A stretch of DNA of 64,000 nucleotides from Pratylenchus scribneri (taxonomy: Eukaryota; Nematoda; Chromadorea; Rhabditida; Pratylenchidae): contig JAQSEB010000023.1 in the NCBI GenBank assembly GCA_030063045.1, forward strand, positions 5,704,001 to 5,768,000, in the 5' to 3' direction. The notes beneath the pieces were generated by a model, which worked only from the letters and a program-made list of their open reading frames with translations, ran no database searches and had not been told where the DNA came from. Positions 36,428 to 54,739 of this stretch are shown here, piece by piece. The number at the start of each line of letters is the position of its first letter. The first letter of the stretch is position 1. The position numbers were made by a program, and so were the translations under genes.

Positions 36428-37745
36428 TAGTCAAAAAAATGCTAAAATAAAACAATCGATATGGGCGGTAGTCAAAAAAATGCAAAAACGGGCGTTAGTC
36501 AATAAAATGCAAAAACAAAAAAATTGTGCGAAAAATGGAAACTGACGAAATTAAATAATTTAATAAAATTGTGTTTTCCCTTTCCGGAAAATGTTCGCCA
36601 AAATTTGTTTTTCTTTCCGGAAAATATTCGCCAAAATTTGTTTTTCTTTCCGGAAAATATTCGCCAAAATTTGTTTTTCTTTCCGGAAAATATTCGCCAA
36701 AATTTGTTTTTCTTTCCGGAAAATATTCGCCAAAATTTGTTTTTCTTTCCGGAAAATATTCGCCAAAATTTGTTTTGCTTTCCGGAAAATATTCGCCAAA
36801 ATTTGTTTTTCTTTCCGGAAAATATTCGCCAAAATTTGTTTTTCTTTCCGGAAAATATTCGCCAAAATTTGTTTTTCTTTCCGGAAAATATTCGCCAAAA
36901 TTTGTTTTTCTTCCCGGAAAATGTTCGCCAAAATGTTTTTAATTCCTTCCGGAAAATGTTTGCCAAAATGTTTTTAATTCCTTCCGGAAAATGTTTGCCA
37001 AAATGTTAATTCCTTCCGGAAAATGTTTGCCAAAATGTTAATTCCTTCCGGAAAATGTTCGCCAAAATGTTAATTCCTTCCGGAAAATGTTCGCCAAAAT
37101 GTTTTTAATTCCTTATGGAAAATGTTCGCCAAAATGTTAATTCCTTCCGGAAAATGTTTGCCAAAATGTTAATTCCTTCCGGAAAATGTTCGCCAAAATG
37201 TTTTTAATTCCTTCCGGAAAATGTTCGCCAAAATGTTTTTAATTCCTTACGGAAAATGTTCGCCAAAATGTTAATTCCTTCCGGAAAATGTTTGCCAAAA
37301 TGTTAATTCCTTCCGGAAAATGTTCGCCAAAATGTTTTTAATTCCTTCCGGAAAATGTTCGCCAAAATGTTTTTAATTCCTTACGGAAAATGTTCGCCAA
37401 ATTTTTTTTCCTTTCTGGATAAACTTAAAGATACAATCCGGAATATTAAGCCTTCTTTCATTAATTAAACACATAATTTTATATTTTCTTTTATTTTCCG
37501 GAGAGAAATATGTGGAGACGAACATTTCCACAAAGAGAAACATATAGTGGCGAAAATTTCAGGAAGAAATAAAACAATATAAAATTATCTTAATTTCTTG
37601 GATTTCTAGTTTTAGTGAATTTTTTGCATTTTTTTGACTAATGCCCATTTTTGCATTATTTTGACTAAAGCCCGTTTTTGCATTTTTTGACAAATGCCGT
37701 TTCATTTTTTGACTAACAACGTAGCACCTTTTTGCTAACCGCAAG
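36428..37745. repeat. Repeat element with inverted TAGTCAAAAAAATGC ends around a minisatellite
   Basis: Left side (36428-36515) repeats TAGTCAAAAAAATGCAAAAA; right side (37625-37745) holds its complement (TTTTTGCATTTTTTTGACTA). Between them is the 33-bp array. The right end is longer and includes GGTGCTACGTTGTTAGTC in reverse, so the left end may be deleted. Confidence 0.55.
36580..37415. repeat. Minisatellite, 33-bp units (TTTCCGGAAAATATTCGCCA)
   Basis: About 10 near-identical 33-bp units (36580-36930), then about 17 shorter variants with TTCCTTCCGGAAAATGTTCG. A 33-bp unit is 11 codons, which keeps several frames open on both strands; the 120-160 aa frames here are artefacts of the array. 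Confidence 0.92.
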
Positions 37746-38779: not shown

Positions 38780-40112
38780 TTTATTATTTTTTTCAATGAA
38801 AATTTTGAGCTAATTTTAGTGGCATTTAAATGATCCAAATTGGCAAATATTAAGTGGGAAAAGATTGAATTCCGAATAATTTGTTCAGCAGCTATTTTTA
38901 TCTCAAAAAATGAATTCCTCCATCATTGAGTGATTTTTACCTTCAAAAATTTTATTTTTTTTATTTTTATTTGCTATTTCCAGCAGCCTTCATCCATCCG
39001 AAAAATGCCACCAACGAATTATTTGTAAAACAAAAGAGGGAAATCATGAAATTTAATAGTGGATTTAATTTGGGATGGAACATCAAACATCAATATATTA
39101 TTTTTGTGAAAAATATTAAATTCACAGAGAGAGAATGGTGATCCAATTTAATCAATAATTTTATTATTTATTTCTTACAATTTTATCCAGCCATTGTGAA
39201 AATAATTTCCATTTTGGGGAATCACGGCATATCTTAATCAATTCATGAAATTTATTTATAAATTTTTCTACTAAAATTCAAATTTTAAAAAATGGCGAAT
39301 TTTAATGTCAGAATACTGTCAAAGCATCAGAATTAATCCACCATAACCCAATTTCTTTATCATGATTATATTAATATAATAATTTCCAAAAGTTTAATAA
39401 AATTAATTAAAAATATTATGTAGATTAGATTTACATTGGTATTCTGTATTCTCACAGAGTGGAAAAAAAACAACAAGCACCGTTACACCACTGTACAAAT
39501 ATTTTTAAATTTTTTTTTTCAAATTTTCTATTTTCAGTTTTCAATCTTCCCATCATTTAGCACATCTGCCGCATCCACATCAAAATTGACCGAGAGAAGG
39601 TACTTGTCGTTGTCGGTAATCTGTGGGCAGATTTGAAAAATTTTTTAGTATCATATATTATTTTCATATTTAGTAAACCAATTAAAAAAAACAAACATTA
39701 TTTTAGGTGATTTTAGGGTTCACAAATTTTGTAGGGTAACATTGAATTATTTAAATTGTGAAAAAATCTGCCCACAGTAGTCAACAAATAGCAAAGAGAA
39801 TAAAATATTCGGATTGTAATTTGTATGTGGAATTGATGTTGAGATGATTGATGATATATTATATTTACCGAAAATTTTTTGAATGTATTTTTTGATTAAT
39901 TAAATAAAATTGAAAATATTCAATATATTTTCTCTAATCAAATTAAATACAAATTAACACTGTTCAAAAACAGATTTCTGATATATTAGAGTCAAAAATT
40001 GTTTTGCCGGTAAAAAAAGCCATTTTTGCCGGTATAATTAAAATATTTTCCTTTAATATTTTATTAAATTTTAAAAAATTAAATGCCGAATATTTATCTG
40101 AATTTTTATTAG
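38780..40112. other. AT-rich stretch with small inverted repeat
   Basis: No supported gene. CTGTGGGCAGATTTG at 39620 and its complement ending at 39778 form a MITE-like hairpin without a clear target duplication. Upstream exons of the GT31 fragment were searched for here and not found. Confidence 0.4.
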
Positions 40113-40422
40113 GCAAGCCATCAATGCCATATTAAAATTCACAAATGAAGTTGCCGGCTTCAACATGGATGATGTCCTATTCACCGGCATTTTGGCGCAA
40201 AAGGCAAATGTCACACTTTCTGATCATCAGGACATCTTTTGGGTTGGAACAAAAGTGAAATAAAATGTAAAATTCTCTAAAAACAAATTTAATTTACAGT
40301 TAAGAGCAAGGGAAAAATGCACGGATGGCATCCCAAATTTATGTGCACTTTGGGGGGCAGGTTCATTGAAAGAATTTGAACAAATTTATTCTGATATAAA
40401 ATCCATTAAATGTCAAAATTAA
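40113..40422 (+). pseudogene. C-terminal fragment of a GT31 (beta-1,3-galactosyltransferase type) glycosyltransferase
   Basis: Two exons, 40113-40254 and 40300-40422, join in phase to about 88 aa ending at TAA. The first holds AINAILKFTNEVAGFNMDDV then LFTGILAQKANV, the Glu/Asp-Asp-Val-x-x-TG-x-x-A pattern at the end of GT31 catalytic domains; the second has REKCTDGIPNLCALWGAGS. The upstream exons (signal anchor, DDD motif) are not visible in the preceding 1.3 kb or further upstream on this strand. It is most likely a broken or partly deleted gene, though a far upstream exon cannot be excluded. Confidence 0.6.
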
Positions 40423-40784
40423 AACATTTTGATTTATTTATTCTATATATTTTATTATATTTGCATTTTATTTATTTTCCCCGTGTAAAAATGATTTTAT
40501 AAGAAAGTATAAATTTTTAATTCTAACAAGAATTCCAAACCCAGAACATACCGAATTATAATCAGAAAAGGCAGCGGAATAAATTCAGAACAAGCGGAAT
40601 CCAAATTTTCGATGTTCGGCTTATCATATTTTTAAAATTTATTCGTTACCATAGATTTGGTAAAATAGCAATTTGATGATCAAAGGAAGCTTTTTGTATT
40701 TGATGGAAATTTTCAGACGGCATACAACAATTCGTCATTATTTTTTCCCGTTTCTATGTTTCCGTGCCCATTATTTTACTAAAT

Positions 40785-41790
40785 CTTCCCTTTTTGGCCT
40801 GATCATTCCCCCACCCACATGCCCTTGTTTTTATGATTTACTAGATCTTCCCTTTTTGGCCTGATCATTCCCCCACATGCCCTTGTTTTTATGATTTACT
40901 AAATCTTCCCTTTTTGGCCTGATCATTCCCCCACATGTCCTTGTTTTTATGATTTACTAAATCTCCCTTTTTGGCCTGATCATTCCCCGACATGCCCTTG
41001 TTTTTATGATTTACTAAATCTTCCCTTTTTGCCCTGATCATTCCCCCACATGCCCTTGTTTTTATGATTTACTAGATCTTCCCTTTTTGGCCTGATCATT
41101 CCCCCACATGCCCTTGTTTTTATGATTTACTAAATCTTCCCTTTTTGGCCTGATCATTCCCCCACATGCCCTTGTTTTTATGATTTACTAAATCTTCCCT
41201 TTTTGGCCTGATCATTCCCCCACATGCCCTTGTTTTTATGATTTACTAAATCTTCCCTTTTTGGCCTGATCATTCCCCCACATGCCCTTGTTTTTATGAT
41301 TTACTAAATCTTCCCTTTTTGGCCTGATCATTCCCCGACATGCCCTTGTTTTTATGATTTACTAAATCTTCCCTTTTTGCCCTGATCATCCCCCACATGC
41401 CCTTGTTTTTATGATTTACTAAATCTTCCCTTTTTGGCCTGATCATTCCCCCACATGCCCTTGTTTTTATGATTTACTAAATCTTCTCTTTTTGCCCTGA
41501 TCATTCCCCCACATGCCCTTGTTTTTATTGTCATTATTTACTAGATCTTCCCTTCTAGGTCCATTTTGTGTCTGAAGTCTGAACATTCCCCTGTACACCT
41601 TTTTTTGGCCATTTCCTGCCTCATCATTCCCCGGTATGACCTTGTTTTTGTGACCATTATTTACTAGATCTTCCATTTTTGGCCGGATCTCCCACATTCT
41701 TGTTTTTATTGCCATTATTTATTAGATCTTTCCTTTTTGGCCGGAACATTTCCCACAATCTTATTTTTATGGTCAATATATATCTTCCCT
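40785..41790. repeat. Minisatellite, 58-bp units
   Basis: About 13 well-preserved 58-bp units with ACTAAATCTTCCCTTTTTGG, CCTGATCATTCCCCCACATG and CCCTTGTTTTTATGATTT, then degenerate units to about 41790. Not coding. Confidence 0.93.
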
Positions 41791-42045
41791 TTTATGGCCA
41801 TTACCTGCCTGATTATTTTCATTTATTTATTCATCAATATTAAATTAAAAACTATCAATTCAATCAATTCGTGTGGTGAATAGCAGCCAATGAGGACGAC
41901 AGGAAAAAAACAAATAAATAAACATGATTTTTGGCCTTGAATTTGTGGTGGTTAGAGTTTGGATCGTTCTATCAGCGAAATGCTCTGGACTGAAAAATGG
42001 GAATTTTTCAATTCACTTTTCATTCTCAAAAAAAACCTCTTTACT

Positions 42046-45000
42046 CTACTCTTCTGCTGGAATGTGAGTCTTGATGAATTCCAAAACGTCCCTATGCTCT
42101 TGTGGGGTACTCACATGTTGACATGAATAAGTGTGGAATTCAACTATAAATGAATGAAAAAATATTTTCCCAATGGAAAGACTGGAGAACATATTCTTTT
42201 TTGTTTTTATTCTAATCGGGTGAAAAATAGTACCAATCGATTTATTCGTCAAGCAAGTCAAATGAGTGCACGCACTAATTGATCCACGCATCTGTTGAAA
42301 AGTTATGATCTCAAAAAATTGAAAAAAGTGAAGAGTCCCCTAATGGATCAAAAAATAAAAATTTTTTGGATTAATTTTCATTCAAATTATATCATTTTCG
42401 AATTGTCTCGATGAACAGAGCTCGAATCTGCCATTGGTTTCGCATAAAACCGAAAAATAAAAAGTTATGGCCATTTTTATTCTACATGAAGGGCTGGTTT
42501 TAGGGCCTAGGATTAGGGTTTAGGGCACTCCTGCATTTGGGAGAATGGAAGGGAAAGTGGCTGCTGAGGGTGACAGGCGATTTTCAATCAAATTGTCATC
42601 AATCAGTGCTGAAGGAAATTACTGATTGGAGGAATAACTTCTGATATTGTAAAATATGTAATTCAAATTGTCAATCAGTGAGGAAAAGTAGAGGGAATAA
42701 ATCATAATATAAAATATGGAAATTTTTATCACCATCAGCATTTCTCAAAATTAATATTAAAAATGGATCAATTACGGGATTTTATAATGCAAAAACTCTG
42801 AAAAATTTGCTTTACTCCCGGTAAATTTGATAATTGGCTTATTAGACAACTTGGACTATTTCTGTGCTCGGATCAATTAGTGGGTGCACTCATTCGATTG
42901 TCATGACGATAAAAATTATTTGGTACAATATTGACCCAATTAGAATAAAAACAAAAAAGGATATATTCGCCAGGATCTTTTCCAATTAAAAAATTAAAAA
43001 ACCATTTGGATTGAATTGTTTCAATGCTTGATCGGTCATTTGCCCAAATGTGTATGGCACAATGAAGTCATCGCGTCCATGTCCCAGGAATATTGGCGTC
43101 TTCAGATTGGCTTTATGACTCTGAATTCGATATATTTATTTTCATTTTCAAATTATATTTATTTACTCCGGGAATTTTGTTTCTCTGAAGCAGGAAACCG
43201 CTCATCGAAATGATGCAGCCAAGTGTTCCATCATAGGTAAGCCCAGCCTAGAAATTGATTTAATAAAACATTTTAATTCCTTCTAAAACTTACATAAAGT
43301 GCCAATGTGCCACCCATTGAGAAGCCACCAAGCGCAATTCTATTACAGGGAACACCCGATGCGATCTCCTCCTCGATTAGTCCATGCACATAATTTTTTG
43401 CTTGTTCAATGCCAAGTTCATCCTTAAATTGAATTATTTCTGGCTTATCAGCTGATTAGATGATATTATCACCTCTGGTGAACTTGGATCCAAGCCCAGA
43501 ATGTCGAACCAAGCAGGCGTCCGCATGCCAAAGGTGAGAGTCACTGACCTTGTTGGCGCATTTGGGAAGATGTATTTCATGTAGGAAAGTGGCAACTCCT
43601 TTCTGAACACACTGGCCCACCCATTTCCTTGATCGCCAAGTCCATGGAGGAAAATCAACTTTAAATCAGTAAAAAATACATTTTTAAATGTTTAATAAAT
43701 CAAATTACGCTAGCCGAATGTTTTCCAACTGCACGGATTACTATTGGAGGAGCATACTGTACAGGGGCATTTGTAGAATTTGGAGTTCCATTTTGATTGA
43801 TGATTGAGGGCATCATCGGCAATGTGCCAGTGCATGAACTTTGTTCCCAATGATTTCCACTGTAAATATATAGAAGATAGAAAATATGATTTTATTTCTC
43901 AAGTATGTAAATTAAAAAAAATCCGGAAAATAGGCAGATTCTTTCCGGAAAAGAAGCAGAATTAATTATTCCCGGAAAACAGGTTGAATTAATTTTTCCA
44001 GAAAACAGGCGGAATTAATTCTTTCCAGAAAACAGGCGGAATTAATTCTTTCCAGAAAACAGGCGGAATTAATTCTTTCCAGAAAACAGGCGGAATTAAT
44101 TCTTTCCAGAAAACAGGCGGAATTAATTCTTTCCAGAAAACAGGCGGAATTAATTCTTTCCAGAAAACAGGCGGAATTAATTCTTCCAGAAAACAGGCGG
44201 AATTAATTCTTTCCAGAAAACAGGCGGAATTAATTCTTTCCAGAAAACAGGCGGAATTAATTCTTTCCAGAAAACAGGCGGAATTAATTCTTTCCAGAAA
44301 ACAGGCGGAATTAATTCTTTCCAGAAAACAGGCGGAATTAATTCTTCCAGAAAACAGGTGGAATTAATTCTTTCCAGAAAACAGGCGGAATTAATTCTTT
44401 CCAGAAAACAGGCGGAATTCTTTCCAGAAAACAGGCGGAATAAATTTTTCCGGAAATTTAGATTAAAACATTCCGGCAAAAAAACCTTTTCAGAAAAAAG
44501 ATGATTGTCCAGCAGGCGGTAAATATGATAATATATCAAATCATGACCAACACCTTTGAAACCCCAGAGACATTTTAGAAAATTAAAAAAATTTTGGGAA
44601 CCGAATTCGCAGTTATTGTTAAAAAATTGTTAAAAAATATTAAGAAAATAAAAAGTTATTAAATATTATTATTAAAAACAAAAATGCAAATTTAAAAAAA
44701 AGCATCTATGAGTGATGAAAATTGATCACTTTTATTTTAAAATTATTTAATTTCTCGAAGAGCAATCTTACTTGCACATGATTGGCCCATTATGATTGCA
44801 TCCAGTTGGCCAGGCCAAACATTGGCGTGAGCGGATTCGTAGATTGATCGCGGTTAGCTGCATGAAAATTGGACTCTTCTCCGATGGACATTCACTCCAT
44901 TCACTCCAATTGCCCCAAACACCAGTGCAATTTGGGGCAACATATAAAACGGTGGAATTATTGTTGGGCCAACTTTGCATGGGATTGTTGGTAAAATTGG

Positions 45001-45923
45001 TGAACCAATTGCAACCATCGCCATAACAGCAACAATATGCCAGTGGAGGATATCTTTTTGATGTTGGAATATTCAGAAGAGGTTTTGTAATTTATTATTA
45101 TTTTTATTTAATAAAAATAGTTTTGCATGCCAATTCAATTTTACAATTAAATTTTAACTTTAAAAAACAACTTTTAATAACTATTTATAGATTTTAGGAT
45201 TTATTGTTTATAAAATTATATTATTACATTTGATTAGAAATTGTAAAAATAAAAATAATTGGCAAAAAAAGCAACAAAATATCTGACATTTTATTTTTTC
45301 GAATAATATTCTGAATTATTTTTGATCATTAATTTTGATATCAAAATAGTCTGCATTGAGAAGAGATAGCCCAATTTCTAAAATTTTATTCATAGCTAGA
45401 GAGATTATTTTGATAATGACTAGTGTAATTAGCTAATTGGCAAGGATTTTGTTAAAATCCCATTTAAAGCTTAAATCTATCTTCATTGTGACCATTAAAA
45501 AATATAAAAGAGTTCTCAAAAATTATACCCAGTTGAATTTATGCAAAATAGCGGATTCATAGTAGTATATCCGCCCGCAGTGCAATTTGTGGCAGAGCAT
45601 GCTCGAGTGACTATGCCTTGGCTCAAATCTGTGGTAACAAGACAGGAATATGAGGACCTTGGGCATTCCGATGGTTTGCCAGTCAATTCGGATGCCGTAT
45701 TCATTTGGCCCTTGATGTGAAAAGAAATTGTGATTTAATAATTTATAAAAAATAAAAAAATGTTGAAAATTTTGTATAAAAATAAATATTTTCAATTATT
45801 TCAAAAAAATAAATGTAAAATTTAAATAAAAATAAGTACAATATTTACCTGATAACATTTCAATGCATTAATTTGTTGTCCAAAAAAATTCAGAGCCAAG
45901 ATGAAGAAAATTAAATTGAACAT
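42046..45923 (-). CDS. Fusion protein: signal peptide, Ly6-like three-finger domain, TSP1 domain, acyl-protein thioesterase-like hydrolase
   Basis: Nine exons: 45849-45923, 45529-45710, 44772-45053, 43709-43859, 43473-43658, 43294-43422, 43167-43247, 43003-43120, 42046-42143. Every phase closes: 433 aa. Residues 1-21 are a signal peptide. About 22-101 have a three-finger/Ly6 pattern starting LKCYQ and ending CCCYGDGCN (93-101). About 128-190 are a thrombospondin type-1 repeat (WGNWSEWSEC at 132-141). From about 213 the chain is acyl-protein thioesterase-like: LIFLHGLGDQGNGW (231-244), nucleophile Ser327 in GGFSMGG, Asp380 in GHGRDDFIVP, His411 in CQHVS, so the triad is intact. Normal APTs are cytosolic depalmitoylases; this product would enter the secretory pathway. 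The join lies inside exon 4 (about Pro212/Val213). Intron 3 holds a 27-bp minisatellite. An internal start at Met195/196, giving a separate hydrolase, is the main alternative. The last donor is a weak GTTTTT. Confidence 0.85.
43955..44455. repeat. Minisatellite, 27-bp units (TTCTTTCCAGAAAACAGGCG)
   Basis: About 17 units of 27 bp, a few with deletions, in intron 3 of the fusion gene, exactly between the TSP1 exon and the exon that joins TSP1 to the hydrolase. Unit length is 9 codons, which explains a 120-codon minus frame that is not coding. Confidence 0.93.
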
Positions 45924-46840
45924 TTTTATAAAATTTTAAAAAATCCGGAAGTAATCAAAAAATTTTAAAATTATTCTTTTAAATTTTTTATTTTCTAATT
46001 AAAAATATTAAAATCATTTGTTAAATTCCGAAAGTTTGAATTTATTTCTGGTCTTATAAATTTATTAATTTATAAGATAAACATTCCTTAAAATATAAAT
46101 AAAAATATATTCTAACTATGCATTTCCTTACAATAAATAAATAAATAGATTTCTTTTTAATCGAAAATGCCATTTGGAACTAGTTTTTGGCGAAAAATTA
46201 ATTTTGTATTTTCTTCAGAATATACCACTGAATTGCTCATTAATATAATCAAATCAACTACATTAACAATGACAACTTCCCATGACAACAAGAATTAGTC
46301 CATTATTAATTTAATATCTAATTTACAAGGAAATTTGGTGAGAATTGTTGACCGAGTGTTCACATTTAAGTGGAGAATGTGTTCAACTTATTTTTTCCTT
46401 TATTAAAACAGCAATTCTCTATTTCCATGGCGATTTAATAAAGTTTTCACATGATTAATGTGAGGAAACTTAAATTATAAATATTTGGTTGAAAAATTTA
46501 ATTAAACACCATATTTTTGATGATATAAAATTTTTTATGATGCCAAGAATAGTAAAACTTTCTGTGCTAGTAAATTAGCTTAAAAATTAATTTTTTTTGC
46601 AAAATCTCTTTTGTAAAAAAATCTAACTGTTTGAAAATATACCAAAAAAATTTTAATGTTATTTTTGTTGTTATTCTTGGACCGGAGATAAAAAAATAGC
46701 ACATCACTTATTAGTTTCCAGTTTTTGACTACATTCTTTATTCTAAATTGACATGTTTATATAAGATGGACGAATTCAAATCAAAAATTTTTATATAAAT
46801 TGTTTCACAAATTGGTTTTAATCTTGTTCAGTTTTTCTCT
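45924..46840. other. Spacer between the tandem Ly6-TSP1 paralogues (upstream region of the fusion gene)
   Basis: The part 46130-46520 aligns with 48570-49150 upstream of the paralogue: shared blocks GCCATTTGGA, TTGGCGAAAAATTAATT, GTGAGAATTGT, GTGTTCACATTTAA, TTTCCATGG. The duplicated unit thus includes at least 0.5 kb upstream and probably the promoter. Confidence 0.6.
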
Positions 46841-48368
46841 TCATCCGGCCGCAGGTGCATTGGTCGAATTTTGTGTGCCATTTTGGGCGATCAAAGGCAT
46901 TGTGCCAGAGCATGGACTTTGTTCCCAATGATTTCCGCTTTAAATTTTTTGAGGAAATTATATATTTTAAATTTAATTAATTCTCTCATATGTCAATCTT
47001 ACTTGCACGTGATTGGCCCATTATAATTACATCCAGTTGGCCAAGCCAAACATTTCCTTGAGCGAATTCGTTGATTGATTGCAGTCAGTTGCATGAAAAT
47101 TGGACTCATTTCCGATGGACATTCACTCCATTCACTCCAATTGCCCCAAACACCATAGCAATTTGGAGGGGGGTATAAAATGGTTGCATTATTGTTGGGA
47201 GGTTGATTAATTGGCAAGTTGGTAAAATTTGCATATTCATTGCAACCATCGCCATAGCAGCAACAATATGTTGATGGAGGAAATCTTTTTATTAGTGGAA
47301 TATTCAAAATAAGATTTGATTATTATTTAAAATTATTAACGATTTTACATACCAAATTAATTTTTCAATTAGACATTAATTTAAATATGCAAATTTTTGA
47401 TAACTCTTAATAGTCTTGAGGATATTTTGATTATATTTAGAATTATTGGATTTGATAGGGAATTGTAAAAAGTCATGAGTAGGGTTCGGATTTTTATTTT
47501 TGATGAGAAATACACAAAATAGTTTTTTTAAACATTTATATTTCAAGTTTTTTACGAACTTTTTATTGATCTATTTTACCTATTTTGGTACTTTTTGTGT
47601 GGAAAATTTCATTGTAAAAATTCAATAAAAAAGCAAAAAATATTTTGTGGTTATTTTTGGAAAATTTCATATTAAAAATGGACACCTATTTTGCGATTTT
47701 TGCGACCTAAAAATCCGAAACTCTAATTCTGAATAAAAATGCCACAAAATAATCTAAAAAAAAATTTTGTTAAATCATTTTGATAGCAAAATATTCTACA
47801 TTGAGAAGAGTAACTAATTTTATTGATAGTTGGAGAGAATTATGTCATATCGATCATATTGATTAGTACAATTAGCTAAATTTCAAGGATTTCGATAAAA
47901 TTCCATTTAAAGCTTAATTCCATCTTCTAGATGATTGATAAAAATATAAAAATTTCTCAAAAATTTTACCCAGTTGAATTTATGCAAATTGGCGAATTTG
48001 TAGTAGCGTAGTGACCAGCAGCACTGCCAGCAGTGCAATTTGTAGCGGAGCATGCTCTGAGGACTAAACCCTGATTCCAATCTACGATAGCAGCAACGCA
48101 TGAATATGATATGCGGTCGCCTTTGGGCCCTGGGCATTCCACTGGTGCGCCATACAAGTTGGACGCCATTTTCCATTGGCCCTTGATGTTAGAGGAACAA
48201 TTTAATATTTAAAAAAATTATTCAAAATTTTTGATAATAGTAAAAAAAAATAATACAAACAGAAAAATTATTTCAATGAAAATTTGTCTGTACCTGATAA
48301 CATTTCAATGCATAAATTTGTAGACCATCAAAATTCAGAACAAGGAATATGAAGAAAAGTTTGAACAT
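46841..48368 (-). CDS. Secreted Ly6-like three-finger plus TSP1 protein (tandem paralogue)
   Basis: Exons 48294-48368, 47970-48181, 47003-47284, 46841-46937; 221 aa, all phases closed. Signal peptide (KLFFIFLVLNFDGLQIYA), then LKCYQG, ECPGPKGDRISYSC, LRACSATNCTAG and CINSTG, with the Ly6 end motif CCCYGDGCN, then WGNWSEWSEC of a thrombospondin type-1 repeat and a short Asn/Thr tail ending NSTNAPAAG and TGA. Exons 1 and 3 have the same lengths (75 and 282 bp) as in the fusion gene. It stops eight codons after the shared NGT-NSTNAP tail begins to diverge, where the paralogue enters the hydrolase. Several N-x-S/T sites suggest glycosylation. Function unknown; likely extracellular binding. Confidence 0.88.
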
Positions 48369-49274
48369 TTTTGGAAAATTTAAAATCCGGAAGGAATCAA
48401 ATATATTTTCTAAATTTTTTTCATTTTATTTTTTTATTAAAATTTTTTTATTATTTTATATAGAATGAATTTTTTTTTGATATTTTAAAAATTAAAAATT
48501 TATTTATATATAATTATTACTTAAAATATAATTAATAAATATATAATATGATTCTATGCATTTTCATAATAATAAATAAATAGGTTTATTATTGTTCATC
48601 GAAAACGCCATTTGGACTAGCTTTTATGCTTGGCGAAAAATTAATTAATTAATTTTTTTATATTTCTTATTAATATTCCATTGAATTGTTCATTTAATTA
48701 ATCAACTACATTTGCATTTTAACATACATATACACCAATTTGCCATGGCAATAAAATTGGACATTTTTAATTTAATATCCAATTTACAATGCAATGTGGT
48801 GAGAATTGTCTTTAGATGATTAAAAATTAATTAAATTTTTTGTTCCTCTCAAGAATATAAAATTAATCAACCATACTAGCATCTGGCATTCACACATACA
48901 CATCAACTTGCCAAGACAATACAAATTGGCCTTTTAATTAAATTTTATATTCAATTCTCACCGAAGTTTTGTGGGAATTTTCACAGCGTGTTCACATTTA
49001 ATTCAAGAATATTTTCACTTATTTTCTTCATTATTAACAATTTCCCATTTCCATGGTTATATAATAAAATTTTCACCAGATAAATGTAGGGAAATTAAAA
49101 TTGGAATATTTGGTGGAAAAAAATTAATTAAATACAATAATTTCGATGATATTAATTTTTTCTTAAAATACCAATGGAAATCCTGGAGTGCGGTTGATCC
49201 CTGCATTCACATTTTTATGAGTAATTTTGGGTATTGAATGCGAATTGACCTCTATGTCATCATGGTAAAATGTG
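48369..49274. other. Upstream region of the Ly6-TSP1 paralogue
   Basis: AT-rich; 48570-49150 is homologous to the spacer upstream of the fusion gene. No other gene seen. Confidence 0.5.
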
Positions 49275-49405
49275 TCATGCCAACTTTTACCAAGAAAATG
49301 TAAAGGGAAGACCAAGGACATTCTCTAGTAAAAATTTTTACATATGATATAGTTCAATCAACGCAGTTCATCGAGCTGAATCGAATGGTTCCATTTTTAT
49401 TAGAT
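49275..49405. repeat. Half copy of MITE family P3
   Basis: GCCAACTTTTACCAAGAAAA and CAACGCAGTTCATCGAGCTG match one arm of the element at 7355-7710. Confidence 0.55.
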
Positions 49406-49915
49406 AAAAGGACTTTATGAAGGACATTATGAAGGACTTTATGAAGGTTATTATTTATATTTATGAAGAAAAAATTCAAAAAAAATTTTTTAATTGAATA
49501 TATTTATGAAGAATACATCTTTTGTTATTAGGAAAGTAAATATTTTTATTTTTAAGAATTAAAATATTTACATCTTTAGAATAAAACATATCCGATATAT
49601 TCTTGCTTAAGAAAGATTTCTTCTTAAAAAGAATTTGGATATAATGCTAAAAAATTTGATTTAAATTTAACCCATATCGAAATTATTAAAGAATTTAAGA
49701 TGCGTAACGAAATGCGGAAGAAAGAGAGATCTGACAAGAATCTCGTTTCAGTCTCAAACCGAAATCTCATCTGCCATCTCTGTCCGATCTCAAGACTAAG
49801 GAGAACGAGGAATGATATTTTTATTTTATTCATAAATTTTGTTCATTCAAATATCAAATCAATTAACTTTATCAAATTTAATTAAATTCATGAAAATAAA
49901 ATAAAATATTTTGAA

Positions 49916-52900
49916 TCAATATTTTCCCAAATATTTTGGAAATCCAATCATATTTTGTGCTGGATCGATGACCAAACAATGTTTTTGCTGGAAAAATGGT
50001 CGTCCAAAAATCCATGGTGCATTGGCATTGTCCCCAAAATTGGCGTCCAATTCTTGAATGGCCCAAAGGCACTGGCCGGGAGGCAACAAATTTCCGGGCA
50101 ATTCGATTTTCAAATTTTCCTGCAAAAATTTTATTAAATTATTTTATTGTTTTTTATTTGAATTAATAACATTTTAAATTTTTAAATTTCTGGTAATTTA
50201 TTTTATTTAAAATTAATTTATTTATTGTAATTTAATATAATATTTTGCTAATAATTTTTATTTTATTTACATTAAATTTTGACTTTATTAATATTTCTTT
50301 AAAGACATTGATAATTTTTTACATTTTCCGAAATTAACTTTTTTGTGGCTATAAATTGTTATAGTATAATTTTTAGAGTTTAAGATTCAGAGTATAGGTA
50401 AAATTAACTAGTATATAAATGGAGTTAAAAAATAAATAAAATAATTATTCATTAATCATAAAAATATTTTGATTCATTTCATAGTAGTGATTTCCAAAAT
50501 GGATTATTTACAGATTAAATTAAAGATTGAAATTTTGAAATTACCTTATTCTAATATAATAATATCTAATTTTTTCTTAAAGTATAATTTTTTTTATATT
50601 ATATAATTAAAAACTAACCTTTTCCAGTTTAATGTCATTGTATCTTGTTTTGAAGGTGAATGGTCCATATTGTTCATTGCAATTAATCATGTATAATTGA
50701 TGTCGGCCAATTTTTCGTTTTTCGGCATTAATCATCAATCCCAATTTTGCCACTATTCTTTTGGGTGCTTGAATGAACATGTTGTTTGGATCGATCAACA
50801 CAGTTTTTTCGATTTTATCATCATAATTCATGTCTGGCGTTTTCAGGCTCACTCCCTTTAAAAATGTTACTGGATTATCAAAATTATCATTAATATTTTT
50901 AATTTTAAAAGAAAAAAATTTTTGCCAATATAATTTTTAAGGCCATAAAACTTGGCCATAAGAAAGTGAAATAGCTGGGAATATGGAATAATGTTAGATG
51001 GCTAGATTAGGATTATGAAGTCTTAACATGTGTAATTATTTTTTTGCCCAAAAATATTATTGTTATTTACCCCAAAGAGTAGTTTTTGACTTTTAATAAA
51101 TGATTTTAAACCCTATAAATCTTATACTAATTTGTAAATCTCATCGAGACTCATCGAATGTTATTTATTTTTATTTGTTTAAATTGAAAACCATATTTCC
51201 AATTTTTGGTATAAAACATTTTATTTTGGGTCGAATCCTGACATTTTATATATCAATCAGGGGTGCCATCTCCAAAACTCAAAAATCTGGCATTCGGGTC
51301 TAAAAATTTGGCAGAAATCGGGCAGAAATTTTTAAAAATCGGGCAAAAAATCTGGCATGCTTAAAAACGTATAAAAATAAAAAAAAAGGATATACTTTTT
51401 ATTTCTCTTATGACTTGACTTGTTTGAGCATTTAGGGCTGTGAAATAAAGATAACATAAGCGCTCAAGAAAAAATTAAACAAAAATAGCCCCGTAGGGGA
51501 AAAATTTAACCAAAAATGGCCGCGCAGCGAAAATTTTAAATCAAAAATGGCCGCGCAGCGAAAAATTTTGCCCATTTTTAATAAAAATTTAAAATTTGGC
51601 AAAAAACTGGCAAATTTTGAAAAAACTGGCAAAAATCTTGGCATAAACAAAAATCTGGAAAAAATCCGGCAGTGGCATCAAAAATCGGGCGCGTGCCCGA
51701 AAAATCTGGTATTATATTATGGCACCCCTGATATCAATCGATGCTTCTCGATGAGATTTGCAAATTGATATAATGTTTATAGAGTTTAAAACAGTTTTCT
51801 GATTTAATAGAAGTTAAAAACTATTTTTGGATAAAAAATATTATTCCTTAAATATGATAACTTTAAAAAAGAGCTTGGGTTGACCATGTTTTATGGCCCT
51901 AGTTAAGCCTATGCCAAAAATAGTTACAGTTATTTATCAGTTATTATCGTATTCATTTATTTTGTTGAAATACAATTTTTAGAAATTTATACCTCAATTT
52001 TTAATCTAAATGCGTCCATGCCGGGTCCAGTTTCATTGCCGAAATCCTTTTGTAAGTCATAATAATTGTAAGTGCCAGAAGATTCGCACAATTTATTCGT
52101 TACTAATGGGGATCTTTCGATCACCAATTGTGCCTCAGTTTTGCCATAAGCAAGCTGAACTTTCCTCGGGCGAATTCTCTCCATCAACGCGCTTTGTTTG
52201 CCCATGCTCAACATTCCGCTCACAGACAATTGTTCGAGTAGTTTAATTTCATGGATTTGCTCAACTTGACCAAATGATCGTTCCCGTACTGTGATGTTTT
52301 GCTCTTCAGTGATGTTGCTGAACTGTAAAAATAATAATTTTTTATTAATGTTTAATTTTTAATATTCAAATATAAAATTTATATTAATAATTTTTTTTAA
52401 TTTTTACAATTTATTATTTATTTATAGAGTTGTTTACATCAGTTAATTTTAAATTGGAATTTTCCAAAATGTTGGTTTAGGATTTTCATTAAATATGGAT
52501 TTATTTTGTAATTTGGATCCTATATTCTATTATTAAAAAAAAATTTACAATTTAGGTTATTCAGCGATTTTCTCAATAGAAACGAACTATTTATCACTAT
52601 ATTATTTAGCCAAAAATGCTATTGAATCATTGTACTTTGACCAAAATATCCATTTTCTTTTCGTCAAAATATGTTGCGATTTAATTGAGTGTTTATTTAA
52701 AATAATTTGTCCATTGCTTTTAATTTATTATCTTGCAGTATAATGATCAAAAGCTTTTAAATTAGAGATTTTCTTATTATATAAATTTATCAGAATTAAT
52801 TACCCTAGTTGTTTAATTTTTTTATAAATTAAATTTTTATCAAGTATCTTTTCTTAACATTCTACAATTTTATCTAAAAATTTACCATGATGATGTCTTC

Positions 52901-53386
52901 GCCAAAGAAACCGGCTACAGTGAAATTCAACGATTGTTTTTGAATTGTTGTTTTGAATGTTATATCCGGATGAGATTTAAATGTTTTTGATGCGCTGTTG
53001 TTAAAAGTTCGAGTACCATTTGCATTTTGTGCATTTTGGCCGAATAATGCCACAACAGTTCCACTGCCATTTAGACCCAATGCTTTTGGGGTGAGCACAA
53101 ATGAAATGTCTCCAACCCCGGGGGAAATCAAATCGCCAACAAAATTTAGAAGGAAATCAACGGGTTGCGGTGGAGTGCCAACGCCCAATCGTGCCGTGTA
53201 CACATTGGTGCCCAATGCCAAAATTGTGTCCAATCGGCCATCGTAGGCAGCTCCATGAGTGTCATTTTTGCCAATCAGGCCCAAACGTTCCAAAATATTA
53301 ACATTTTGAAGTTGAATGGTAATTTTATCGGAGGGACTTGAAAATGCACAGACAAAAAGGGCAAAAAAGATGGCGGAAAAAAGCAT
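49916..53386 (-). CDS. Secreted pepsin-like (A1 family) protein without catalytic motifs
   Basis: Exons 52886-53386, 51993-52322, 50619-50855, 49916-50119; 423 aa, all in phase. Signal peptide MLFSAIFFALFVCAFS. The A1 fold is shown by YTARLGVGTPPQPVDFLL near residue 64, VSGMLSMG in the position of the usual GILGLG, and the C-terminal PWIFGRPFFQQKHCLVID then NMIGFP. The first active-site motif (normally DTG after the hydrophobic strand) reads LNFVG, and the second reads LIDPNN. One Asp is retained but both DT/SG signatures are gone, so it is probably not a protease. Such homologues may act as binders or secreted allergen/effector-like proteins; that is inference. An upstream in-frame extension to 53632 lacks a signal peptide and is not used. 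The gene has a nested transposon in its 1.1-kb second intron. Confidence 0.87.
51090..51805. repeat. Palindromic MITE, family P1, copy split by an hAT-like element
   Basis: Left arm 51090-51257 and right arm 51739-51805 (CGATGCTTCTCGATGAGATT) belong together; the hAT-like element 51258-51730 separates them at ATATCAAT. Lies in intron 2 of the pepsin-like gene. Confidence 0.8.
51258..51730. mobile_element. hAT-like non-autonomous element in the pepsin-like gene
   Basis: Ends CAGGGGTGCCAT and complement; perfect 8-bp duplication ATATCAAT at 51250-51257 and 51731-51738. CAGGGGTG is a classic hAT end. The interior repeats AAAAATCTGGCA and AAATGGCCGCGCAGCGAAAA. No transposase. Confidence 0.93.
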
Positions 53387-54739
53387 TTTATTAGATGAAA
53401 TTTTTAGGATATAAATCATAAAATGATCTAGGGCCTTATAAAGGGTTCGAAATAGGAGACAGAACTCCGTAAATGCTGGCCGCTCCCAATTTTTAATCCA
53501 TTGTTCTTCGTTTTGACAATACAAATTTCTGTGACCTTTAATTGGTACGCAATTAATAAACCCAAAAATGATATAATTAAACGAAAAAAATTGGCCGCAC
53601 CTTGAAAAAAGAAGAATTGAAGGAGGGCCCATCCAATAAAATTTTTTTTATCAATTTTCCACCATTTTATCTTTTTTATCAGACATTCATTGAAGACAAA
53701 AATTAAATTTTTGAGGAAATTTTTAAATCTAAAGCGGCTTATTGAATGGGTGAGTTCATTTTTGAAATGTTAATACGTAAGTATTTGTACCAATTGTACC
53801 GTGTGACCATTGCTCATTTATCATTCATTTATTATACTATTATTTTATGGATGAATTACTTCGAATAAGAAATATAAATCAGAAATACAATAAACTCAAT
53901 AGAATTTAATATAGCAAATTTGATGAAAGATATCAAATGAAGCGACCTTTTGAATTTCTTTGAATAAAAATATTCTTCAAAATAAATTGAATATAATAGG
54001 AGATATAGTAGATTTAAATGAAAGATATCTACTAATTAAAAAATATAAAATTCAGGAAAGAAACATAAAACAGGAAAATACATTTCCGGAAAATAAAGGA
54101 AAAAGCATTTTACAAAAGAAAACATTTATGTAAAATACATATTCCGGAACGAAAGACATTTAAGTAAAATAAATTTTCCTGAAGAAACAATTTAAATAAA
54201 ACAGAAAGAAACACATTTAAGAAAACATTTATGGAAAAAACACATTTAGGAAGAATAAATTTTCCGGGAAGAAATACATCTAAAAAATGAATTTTCCAAA
54301 AATAAATAAGGAAATTGTATTTACCAAATGAAACACATTTCCGGAATATAACGCATTTAGGAAAATACATTTTCAGTGGATGTACTAATCTTTTTTTTGA
54401 TAAACAATTTTAATGGAATTAAAATGAAAAACCTAATGGAACAAAAAATCTATTAAGAACAATTAATTTTTTATTAATTTTCCGCTATTTTATAAATTTT
54501 TAAATAAACAATCGTCGATTATTGAAATGAAATTTTTGTAGAAATTTAAAAATGTAAAAAAGCCTATTTTTTTATTTAATCAATTTTTGCAGAGGCAAAA
54601 ACATTAACTGAATGTATGATACAAAATTAACAATTTTAATTTATTATAAAATGAAATGAATATTAAACATTTATTTTTGTACGAAATTTCAAATTAACAT
54701 CATAAATAAAGAACATGTGAATTTTTTTGAATTAATTAG
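53387..54739. other. Intergenic region with degenerate TTTCCGGAAAA repeat
   Basis: From 54060 to 54375 the sequence is a degenerate array of GGAAAATACATTTCCGGA-like and AACACATTTAGGAA-like words, similar in core to the arrays at 36.6 and 44.2 kb. Minus frames there are artefacts. The rest is AT-rich without a gene. Confidence 0.5.

Follow-up and report, generated by a model that had tools for sequence, protein, structure and literature searches.

Can an acyl-protein thioesterase (APT) be turned into a secreted enzyme by gene fusion? The question is raised by a 64,000-nucleotide stretch of the Pratylenchus scribneri genome (contig JAQSEB010000023.1, positions 5,704,001 to 5,768,000 of the forward strand; hereafter the window), in which spliced translation yielded a single frame of 433 residues on the minus strand (45923..42046), built from nine exons. 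The predicted protein consists of a signal-peptide-like start (residues 1-20), a Ly6-like domain (21 to about 101), a TSP1-like motif (about 128-189) and a complete Abhydrolase_2 domain of the APT type (213-433). The fusion is real and not an assembly join. A secreted enzyme is its best reading: with a probability of about 0.62, we propose that an APT copy was fused into a tandem-duplicated Ly6-like gene, and that the resulting single predicted secreted protein would likely place an active serine hydrolase outside the cell.

The spliced coding sequence comprises 1302 nucleotides with its sole stop as the last codon, and all introns (8/8) are bounded by GT..AG. Exon lengths are 75, 182, 282, 151, 186, 129, 81, 118 and 98 nucleotides. 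An earlier note, made from the window sequence, had proposed that nine exons run in phase from a signal peptide into a hydrolase; this frame was confirmed, and all motifs quoted for it are present. The features of the locus are the following.

42046..45923, minus strand: fused Ly6-like/TSP1-like/APT gene, nine exons, 433 residues; second copy at C46:2088203-2091615 with identical exon lengths
45849..45923, minus strand: exon 1, signal-peptide-like residues 1-20, then LKCYQ; across the full-length protein, hydropathy is highest in windows beginning at residues 1-5
45529..45710, minus strand: exon 2, Ly6-like domain (profile comparison)
44772..45053, minus strand: exon 3, in which the Ly6-like domain ends (CCCYGDGCN) and is followed by a linker, WGNWSEWSEC and the greater part of the TSP1-like segment (family alignment and profile comparisons)
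43938..44456, minus strand: 27-bp minisatellite of about 19.5 copies within intron 3 (repeat analysis)
43709..43859, minus strand: exon 4, carrying the join; the TSP1-like segment ends here, and the tail, which runs as far as NSTNAP, is followed by VQYAPPIVIRAVGKHSAS from APT (blastn homology to both parents)
43755..43763, minus strand: breakpoint zone; homology to the Ly6/TSP1 exon ends at 43763, APT homology starts by 43754 (homology limits)
43473..43658, minus strand: exon 5 (APT), 186 nucleotides, the length of standalone exon 2 (spliced comparison)
43294..43422, minus strand: exon 6 (APT), catalytic-type Ser327 of GGFSMGG at 43320-43318 (alignment to APT1)
43167..43247, minus strand: exon 7 (APT; spliced comparison)
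43003..43120, minus strand: exon 8 (APT), catalytic-type Asp380 at 43069-43067; donor GTTTTT common to C46, C41 and C10
42046..42143, minus strand: exon 9 (APT), catalytic-type His411 at 42117-42115, and stop (alignment to APT1)
41834..42045, minus strand: 3' flank homologous to the standalone APT 3' flank (C41 70%, C10 71% over 41834-42167)
46841..48368, minus strand: tandem unfused paralogue, four exons, 221 residues, C-terminus NSTNAPAAG followed by the stop (spliced translation)
45924..46535, minus strand: upstream DNA next to the fused-gene ATG, homologous to the DNA 5' of the unfused neighbour (48369-49161) in two pieces, 71% and 75% (self-comparison)

A whole-genome search with the fused protein returned a second fused locus, on contig C46. 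Spliced in the same way, it again yields 433 residues in one frame; each of its nine exons has the length of its window counterpart, and the junction is the same. Found twice, the nine-exon structure is more than chance. Between the two copies there is no indel in 1302 aligned exon bases as against 35 in 1847 intron bases; at the intron rate, about 25 exon indels would be expected. The surroundings of both loci are collinear over window positions 39963-54227, with pieces that are 63-91% identical and least so in the minisatellite. Because intron 3 differs in length (912 bp in the window copy, which contains the minisatellite, as against 397 bp in C46), the region of the junction is represented by two independent sequences. 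The earlier note had named an assembly join within exon 4, if shown by long reads, as a ground for refutation; such a join was rejected, as the junction is repeated on C46 with different introns. That two separate genes were wrongly joined within exon 4, by the assembly or by the gene model, is extremely improbable: a minisatellite such as that of intron 3 is the kind of place where assemblies may fail, but the junction sits in exon 4, outside the array, and C46 shows it with a far shorter intron 3.

One parent of the fusion is a family of four-exon Ly6/TSP1-like genes, to which the tandem paralogue belongs. The earlier note had placed the join inside one exon, after the NSTNAP shared with this neighbour, and so it was found. 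In the unfused genes, the last exon stops within or right after the NSTNAPxAG tail (20/20 outside the window, plus the window neighbour), the stop being already inside the tail in 11 of the 20; both fused copies read on past this point. These last exons were examined at exon level, chance exon-4 matches at C22:12999, C181:531464 (minus strand) and C19:2427897 were excluded, and exon 4 was not seen at loci L053 and L059-L062. Exon-level counts for the family are lower bounds. The family is large, with members on contigs C9, C22, C158, C16, C234 and C181 (L036, L042-L059), and half of the 20 last exons lie on C9. In the unfused neighbour on C46 (L011, C46:2085780-2087311), exon 1 is frameshifted, so that the frame encoding the signal peptide runs into a stop; the corresponding gene in the window is open.

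The other parent is a standalone six-exon APT gene of 223 residues with its own ATG and the start MSASQIAPPIIIRAAGKHSAS. A search of the genome for such a gene had been suggested in the earlier note, and two were found, on C41 and C10; by eye, a collagen-like coding stretch lies upstream of them. Exons 5-8 of the fused gene are identical in length to exons 2-5 of the standalone genes, and the APT part of the fused gene lacks only the first three APT codons, with no ATG at the old start. The claim that the APT N-terminus follows NSTNAP was correct as to order, but APT homology starts slightly before the YAPP at which it had been set, since fused VQYAPPI aligns with standalone (MSA)SQIAPPI. Parent-one homology extends to 43763 and parent-two homology begins at 43754 and continues past the stop (42167-41834), the duplicated APT unit reaching about 0.2 kb beyond it. 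In blastn comparisons (matches of at least 80 bp, E up to 1e-10), homology to C41 and C10 begins only at the APT start-codon region, and APT upstream DNA was not seen before the join. Over 0.6 kb, the DNA 5' of the fused-gene ATG matches the 5' DNA of the unfused neighbour at 71-75% in self-comparison. The APT introns are kept, so the copy was made by duplication at the DNA level, and a retrocopy was rejected on the same ground. Judged by these homologies, a Ly6/TSP1-like last exon continues in frame into a genomic APT copy that has retained its introns and 3' flank.

No such fusion was present among 39 matches obtained from 1499 candidates in 5.8 billion proteins, a collection that may lack close relatives; PF02230 was found in 39/39, and coverage of the fused protein never exceeded 56%. 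A tree of 16 sequences was built with 12 of these 39 matches, two Meloidogyne models being truncated after residue 175, as they continue into an unrelated domain. In this tree, in which Ditylenchus dipsaci forms a long branch, the two fused copies pair with support 100/100, and the standalone copies join them at 89/92, a fork that is drawn open; sequences of Heterodera, Globodera and Meloidogyne complete the enclosing clade (98/99). Since the fused pair groups with its own standalone copies inside that clade, the fusion likely arose in this lineage after the split from the three genera. At silent sites, the fused copies have diverged from the standalone ones by 0.40-0.50 (dS). An old, family-wide architecture was rejected, as none of the 20 unfused last exons continues into APT and no protein match spans more than 56% of the fused protein. 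The genome search also gave more distant APT-like matches on C11, C42, C124, C111 and C19; the tree does not include them. A possible third fusion at C19:2427531-2427986 was rejected: this is another diverged APT-like gene, with no Ly6/TSP1-like exon recognised by eye in the 1.5 kb inspected. Diverged locus pairs occur among C41, C10, C46 and C23 (dS 0.085 and 0.135), and the distant APT gene is present on three contigs; together, these suggest a polyploid or highly heterozygous genome.

The enzyme half matches Pfam PF02230 (Abhydrolase_2) with 223.6 bits against a cut-off of 23, over model positions 6-217 of 217, and the triad positions are intact, in agreement with the complete thioesterase claimed earlier. 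Among solved structures, the nearest were those of APT1 (E 6.6e-50); the alignment to 5sym and 1fj2 spans 213 residues, and Ser, Asp and His are conserved in it. Ser327, Asp380 and His411 occupy the APT1 triad positions in both fused copies, and we take the equivalent residues to be catalytic in APT1. The motifs GGFSMGG and HGLGDQG are likewise kept in both. Relative to both standalone copies, the fused copies share 20 changes, none of them in the triad; they include D242N, which lies in the GLGDQG-D/N-GW loop, as well as E379D and G412V, which adjoin the catalytic-type Asp and His.

For the N-terminal half, the earlier note had claimed a Ly6-like/TSP1 protein. The Ly6-like part stood on profile comparison; "TSP1" is a motif assignment with no profile at threshold. 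Ten cysteines (C23..C100) ending in CCCYGDGCN are invariant in 8/8 aligned family members, and with hhalign the eight-member family profile matched ten nematode Ly6-like proteins at 99.8% (E 7e-30). These ten came from searches with the neighbour alone, which retrieved one protein, and with the profile, which retrieved 15; some carry the names sleepless, UPAR/Ly6 or Activin_recp in their source records. With the eight members, all Pfam models of the Ly6 clan remained sub-threshold (CD59 0.21, UPAR_LY6 0.6, Activin_recp 0.96, QVR 4.6), as did the nematode relatives themselves, the best of which reached 21.7 bits for QVR against a cut-off of 27.3 (P0051); for this reason we use the label "Ly6-like". 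The best solved structure for the N-terminal half was BMP receptor type 2 (E 0.027). The relative scoring best against the family's Ly6 part (P0041, Ditylenchus destructor, 319 residues) has three tandem Ly6-like repeats by eye. A single-sequence AlphaFold model of P0040 had a mean pLDDT of 52.9 and was not used.

In the TSP1-like segment, W132, W135 and W138 (WxxWxxW), R158, R160 and R162 (R-x-R-x-R) and six cysteines are invariant in 8/8 members. With Pfam TSP_1, 8 of 11 members gave a match of E 10 or lower, the best being 0.31; the score of member 1 was 8.3 bits against a cut-off of 21.6, with only 9 residues matched. A PDB profile search with the segment gave no matches, and the fused gene was not among the 47 matches of a genome-wide TSP_1 search. 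In hhalign, the segment matched three human repeats at 84.7%, over 16 columns (Ly6 control 0.3%). A match to UNC5B over this part (E 2.5) and other weak matches (RGM domain family member B, umecyanin, a viral envelope protein and others) were not counted. By eye, the segment is absent from the 15 proteins of the profile search, and the Ly6 plus TSP1-like arrangement looks lineage-specific within the protein collection searched.

Hydropathy of the fused protein peaks at the N-terminus and at about residues 344-356 in the enzyme. Like other nematode Ly6 proteins, it begins with a hydrophobic stretch followed by ALKCY; this hydrophobic start, found in both fused copies by sequence and hydropathy, speaks against the usual cytosolic location of APT. 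A hydrophobic C-terminal tail was not found by hydropathy. A glycosylphosphatidylinositol anchor was rejected on that ground, and the surface tethering that the earlier note had entertained is not upheld.

Selection was assessed by NG86 from the two fused copies only, with counts rounded for Fisher tests. If the fusion came first, as implied by the shared junction, differences between the copies accumulated after it. For the Ly6/TSP1-like part (residues 21-212), the ratio of replacement to silent rates (dN/dS) was 0.196 (13 silent, 10 replacement; p 1.8e-4), for the APT part 0.245 (20 silent, 18 replacement; p 3.0e-5) and for the whole 0.239 (dS 0.135). We counted the complete open reading frame at two loci, the absence of exon indels and the low dN/dS in both halves in favour of a secreted fusion, together with the missing APT start codon and upstream DNA, the shared 5' DNA of the unfused neighbour, the aligned triad, the hydrophobic N-terminus and the loss of cysteines in C46. 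The C46 copy has lost 3/3 APT cysteines (C318S, C346G, C409F), and only the 16 cysteines of the N-terminal modules are left. The chance of this loss is about 1e-4 with 11 random polarised changes and 1.7e-4 with 13, in what is a post-hoc observation; the loss is compatible with a protein that resides in an oxidising compartment, but is no proof of it.

Several results weigh against the secreted active enzyme. These are: (i) the failure of the TSP1-like segment to reach any profile threshold; (ii) a constraint on APT that is weaker between the two fused copies (0.245) than between the standalone ones (C41, C10; dN/dS 0.068); (iii) non-significant dN/dS for the Ly6-like domain alone (0.48, p 0.26), the tail (0.57, p 0.54) and the signal region (0.42, p 0.30); (iv) the uneven distribution of polarised APT changes, 11 in C46 and 5 in the window copy, with two unpolarised; (v) the retention of 3/3 APT cysteines in the window copy. 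A partial relaxation of the APT half is possible. The weaker constraint also counts for a rival in which the protein is secreted with its hydrolase serving as a non-catalytic binding or scaffold domain, and the 20 shared changes, with E379D, G412V and D242N among them, point the same way. Both copies, however, have kept the triad and the two motifs around it, and the shared changes spare the triad, which makes a scaffold rather improbable. A neutral or decaying chimera without function is highly unlikely: broken-looking unfused relatives do exist, such as the C46 neighbour with its exon 1 frameshift, but the fused copies show neither indels nor internal stops over 433 codons while their introns diverged, and dN/dS is at most 0.25 in both halves at the p values given above.

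The main rival is a separate cytosolic enzyme. Transcription or trans-splicing at exon 4 would allow the APT half to be made from Met195 or Met196, and the Ly6/TSP1-like exons would be leftover or would encode a truncated product by way of a stop after the exon 3 donor. The two Met codons are located where the earlier note had placed them; they are in frame, and in each copy they precede the APT half by 17-18 residues. Moreover, retention of intron 3 leads to an immediate TAA. Such retention would, on the other hand, remove the last TSP1-like cysteine and the tail. No match to the standalone upstream region was found before exon 4, and exons 1-3 have stayed open and free of indels at a Ly6/TSP1-like dN/dS of 0.196 despite the loss of their own stop. 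We regard this rival as unlikely, though less so than a scaffold.

Under the preferred reading of a secreted enzyme, the chimera would be transcribed from the Ly6-gene promoter, as may be expected where no APT upstream DNA was found before the join. The signal sequence would direct the protein to the secretory pathway and be removed, and the disulphide-bonded N-terminal modules would fold there and bind a surface, matrix or glycan. The hydrolase would then cleave an acyl ester or thioester, of a lipidated protein or a lysophospholipid, at that place, and the standalone genes would retain the cytosolic APT function. It is a tentative and rather doubtful extension that the protein could be the first of a new class of depalmitoylases that are exported: a cytosolic APT turned by a nematode into an extracellular eraser of lipid modification, addressed by Ly6/TSP1-like modules from the worm's own large secreted family, with acylated signalling proteins, either the worm's own or those of its plant host, as substrates. 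If an APT has indeed been handed to the secretory pathway, it would become directly testable whether enzymes of this family remove acyl groups from proteins or lipids outside the cell. With both parents, the breakpoint and a later duplicate of the chimeric gene readable in one genome, one can trace how selection has acted on an enzyme after its relocation. Expression in secretory or gland tissue would make it a new type of candidate secreted enzyme.

Besides the array in intron 3 (43938-44456, 27-bp unit), the window contains minisatellites at 36565-37413 (33 bp) and 40775-41528 (58 bp); a TTCC-x-GAAAA core is common to the 27-bp and 33-bp units. The open reading frame 52874-53632 (minus strand) contains the stretch GTPPQPVDFLLNFVGD, presumably like that of an aspartic protease, with no DTG motif there; at E 0.1, Pfam gave no match. 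On C46, the corresponding sequence shares 75% identity with it and is interrupted by in-frame stops.

S-acylation is erased mainly inside cells. Deacylases outside the cytosol are represented by Notum, a secreted member of another hydrolase family that acts on Wnt, and by the lysosomal PPT1. Acyl-protein thioesterases 1/2 (LYPLA1/2, PF02230) and C. elegans ATH-1 share the same whole Abhydrolase_2 domain, to which the fused protein adds a signal-peptide-like start and two Cys-rich modules. As stated in a paper on the C. elegans enzymes, mammalian APT1 is cytosolic, ATH-1 is likely cytoplasmic, and PPT-1 and ATH-1 have no conserved region in common (PMC4192757). The standalone genes on C41 and C10 have four internal exons of the same length as those of the fused gene and differ in their own MSASQIAPP start and their 223 residues. 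Lysophospholipase A of Clonorchis sinensis is a parasitic-worm enzyme reported to act on host macrophage cells; the term "signal peptide" does not appear in the main text of that paper, and there is no mention of a fusion (PMC5474055). Nematode Ly6/Quiver (QVR) proteins, such as the Globodera rostochiensis "Protein sleepless" (P0043), have the same conserved order of cysteines ending in CCCYGDGCN. The ten aligned nematode relatives are single Ly6-like domains, most of them (not P0046) with a hydrophobic C-terminal stretch by eye, whereas the fused protein has no such tail and two further modules. Literature searches did not find the architecture described in the titles or abstract openings listed, and gave no match for thioesterase with Ly6 and TSP1 in nematodes or for depalmitoylation effectors of plant-parasitic nematodes. 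Chimeric genes and extracellular deacylases are known kinds; their combination in this locus appears to be new.

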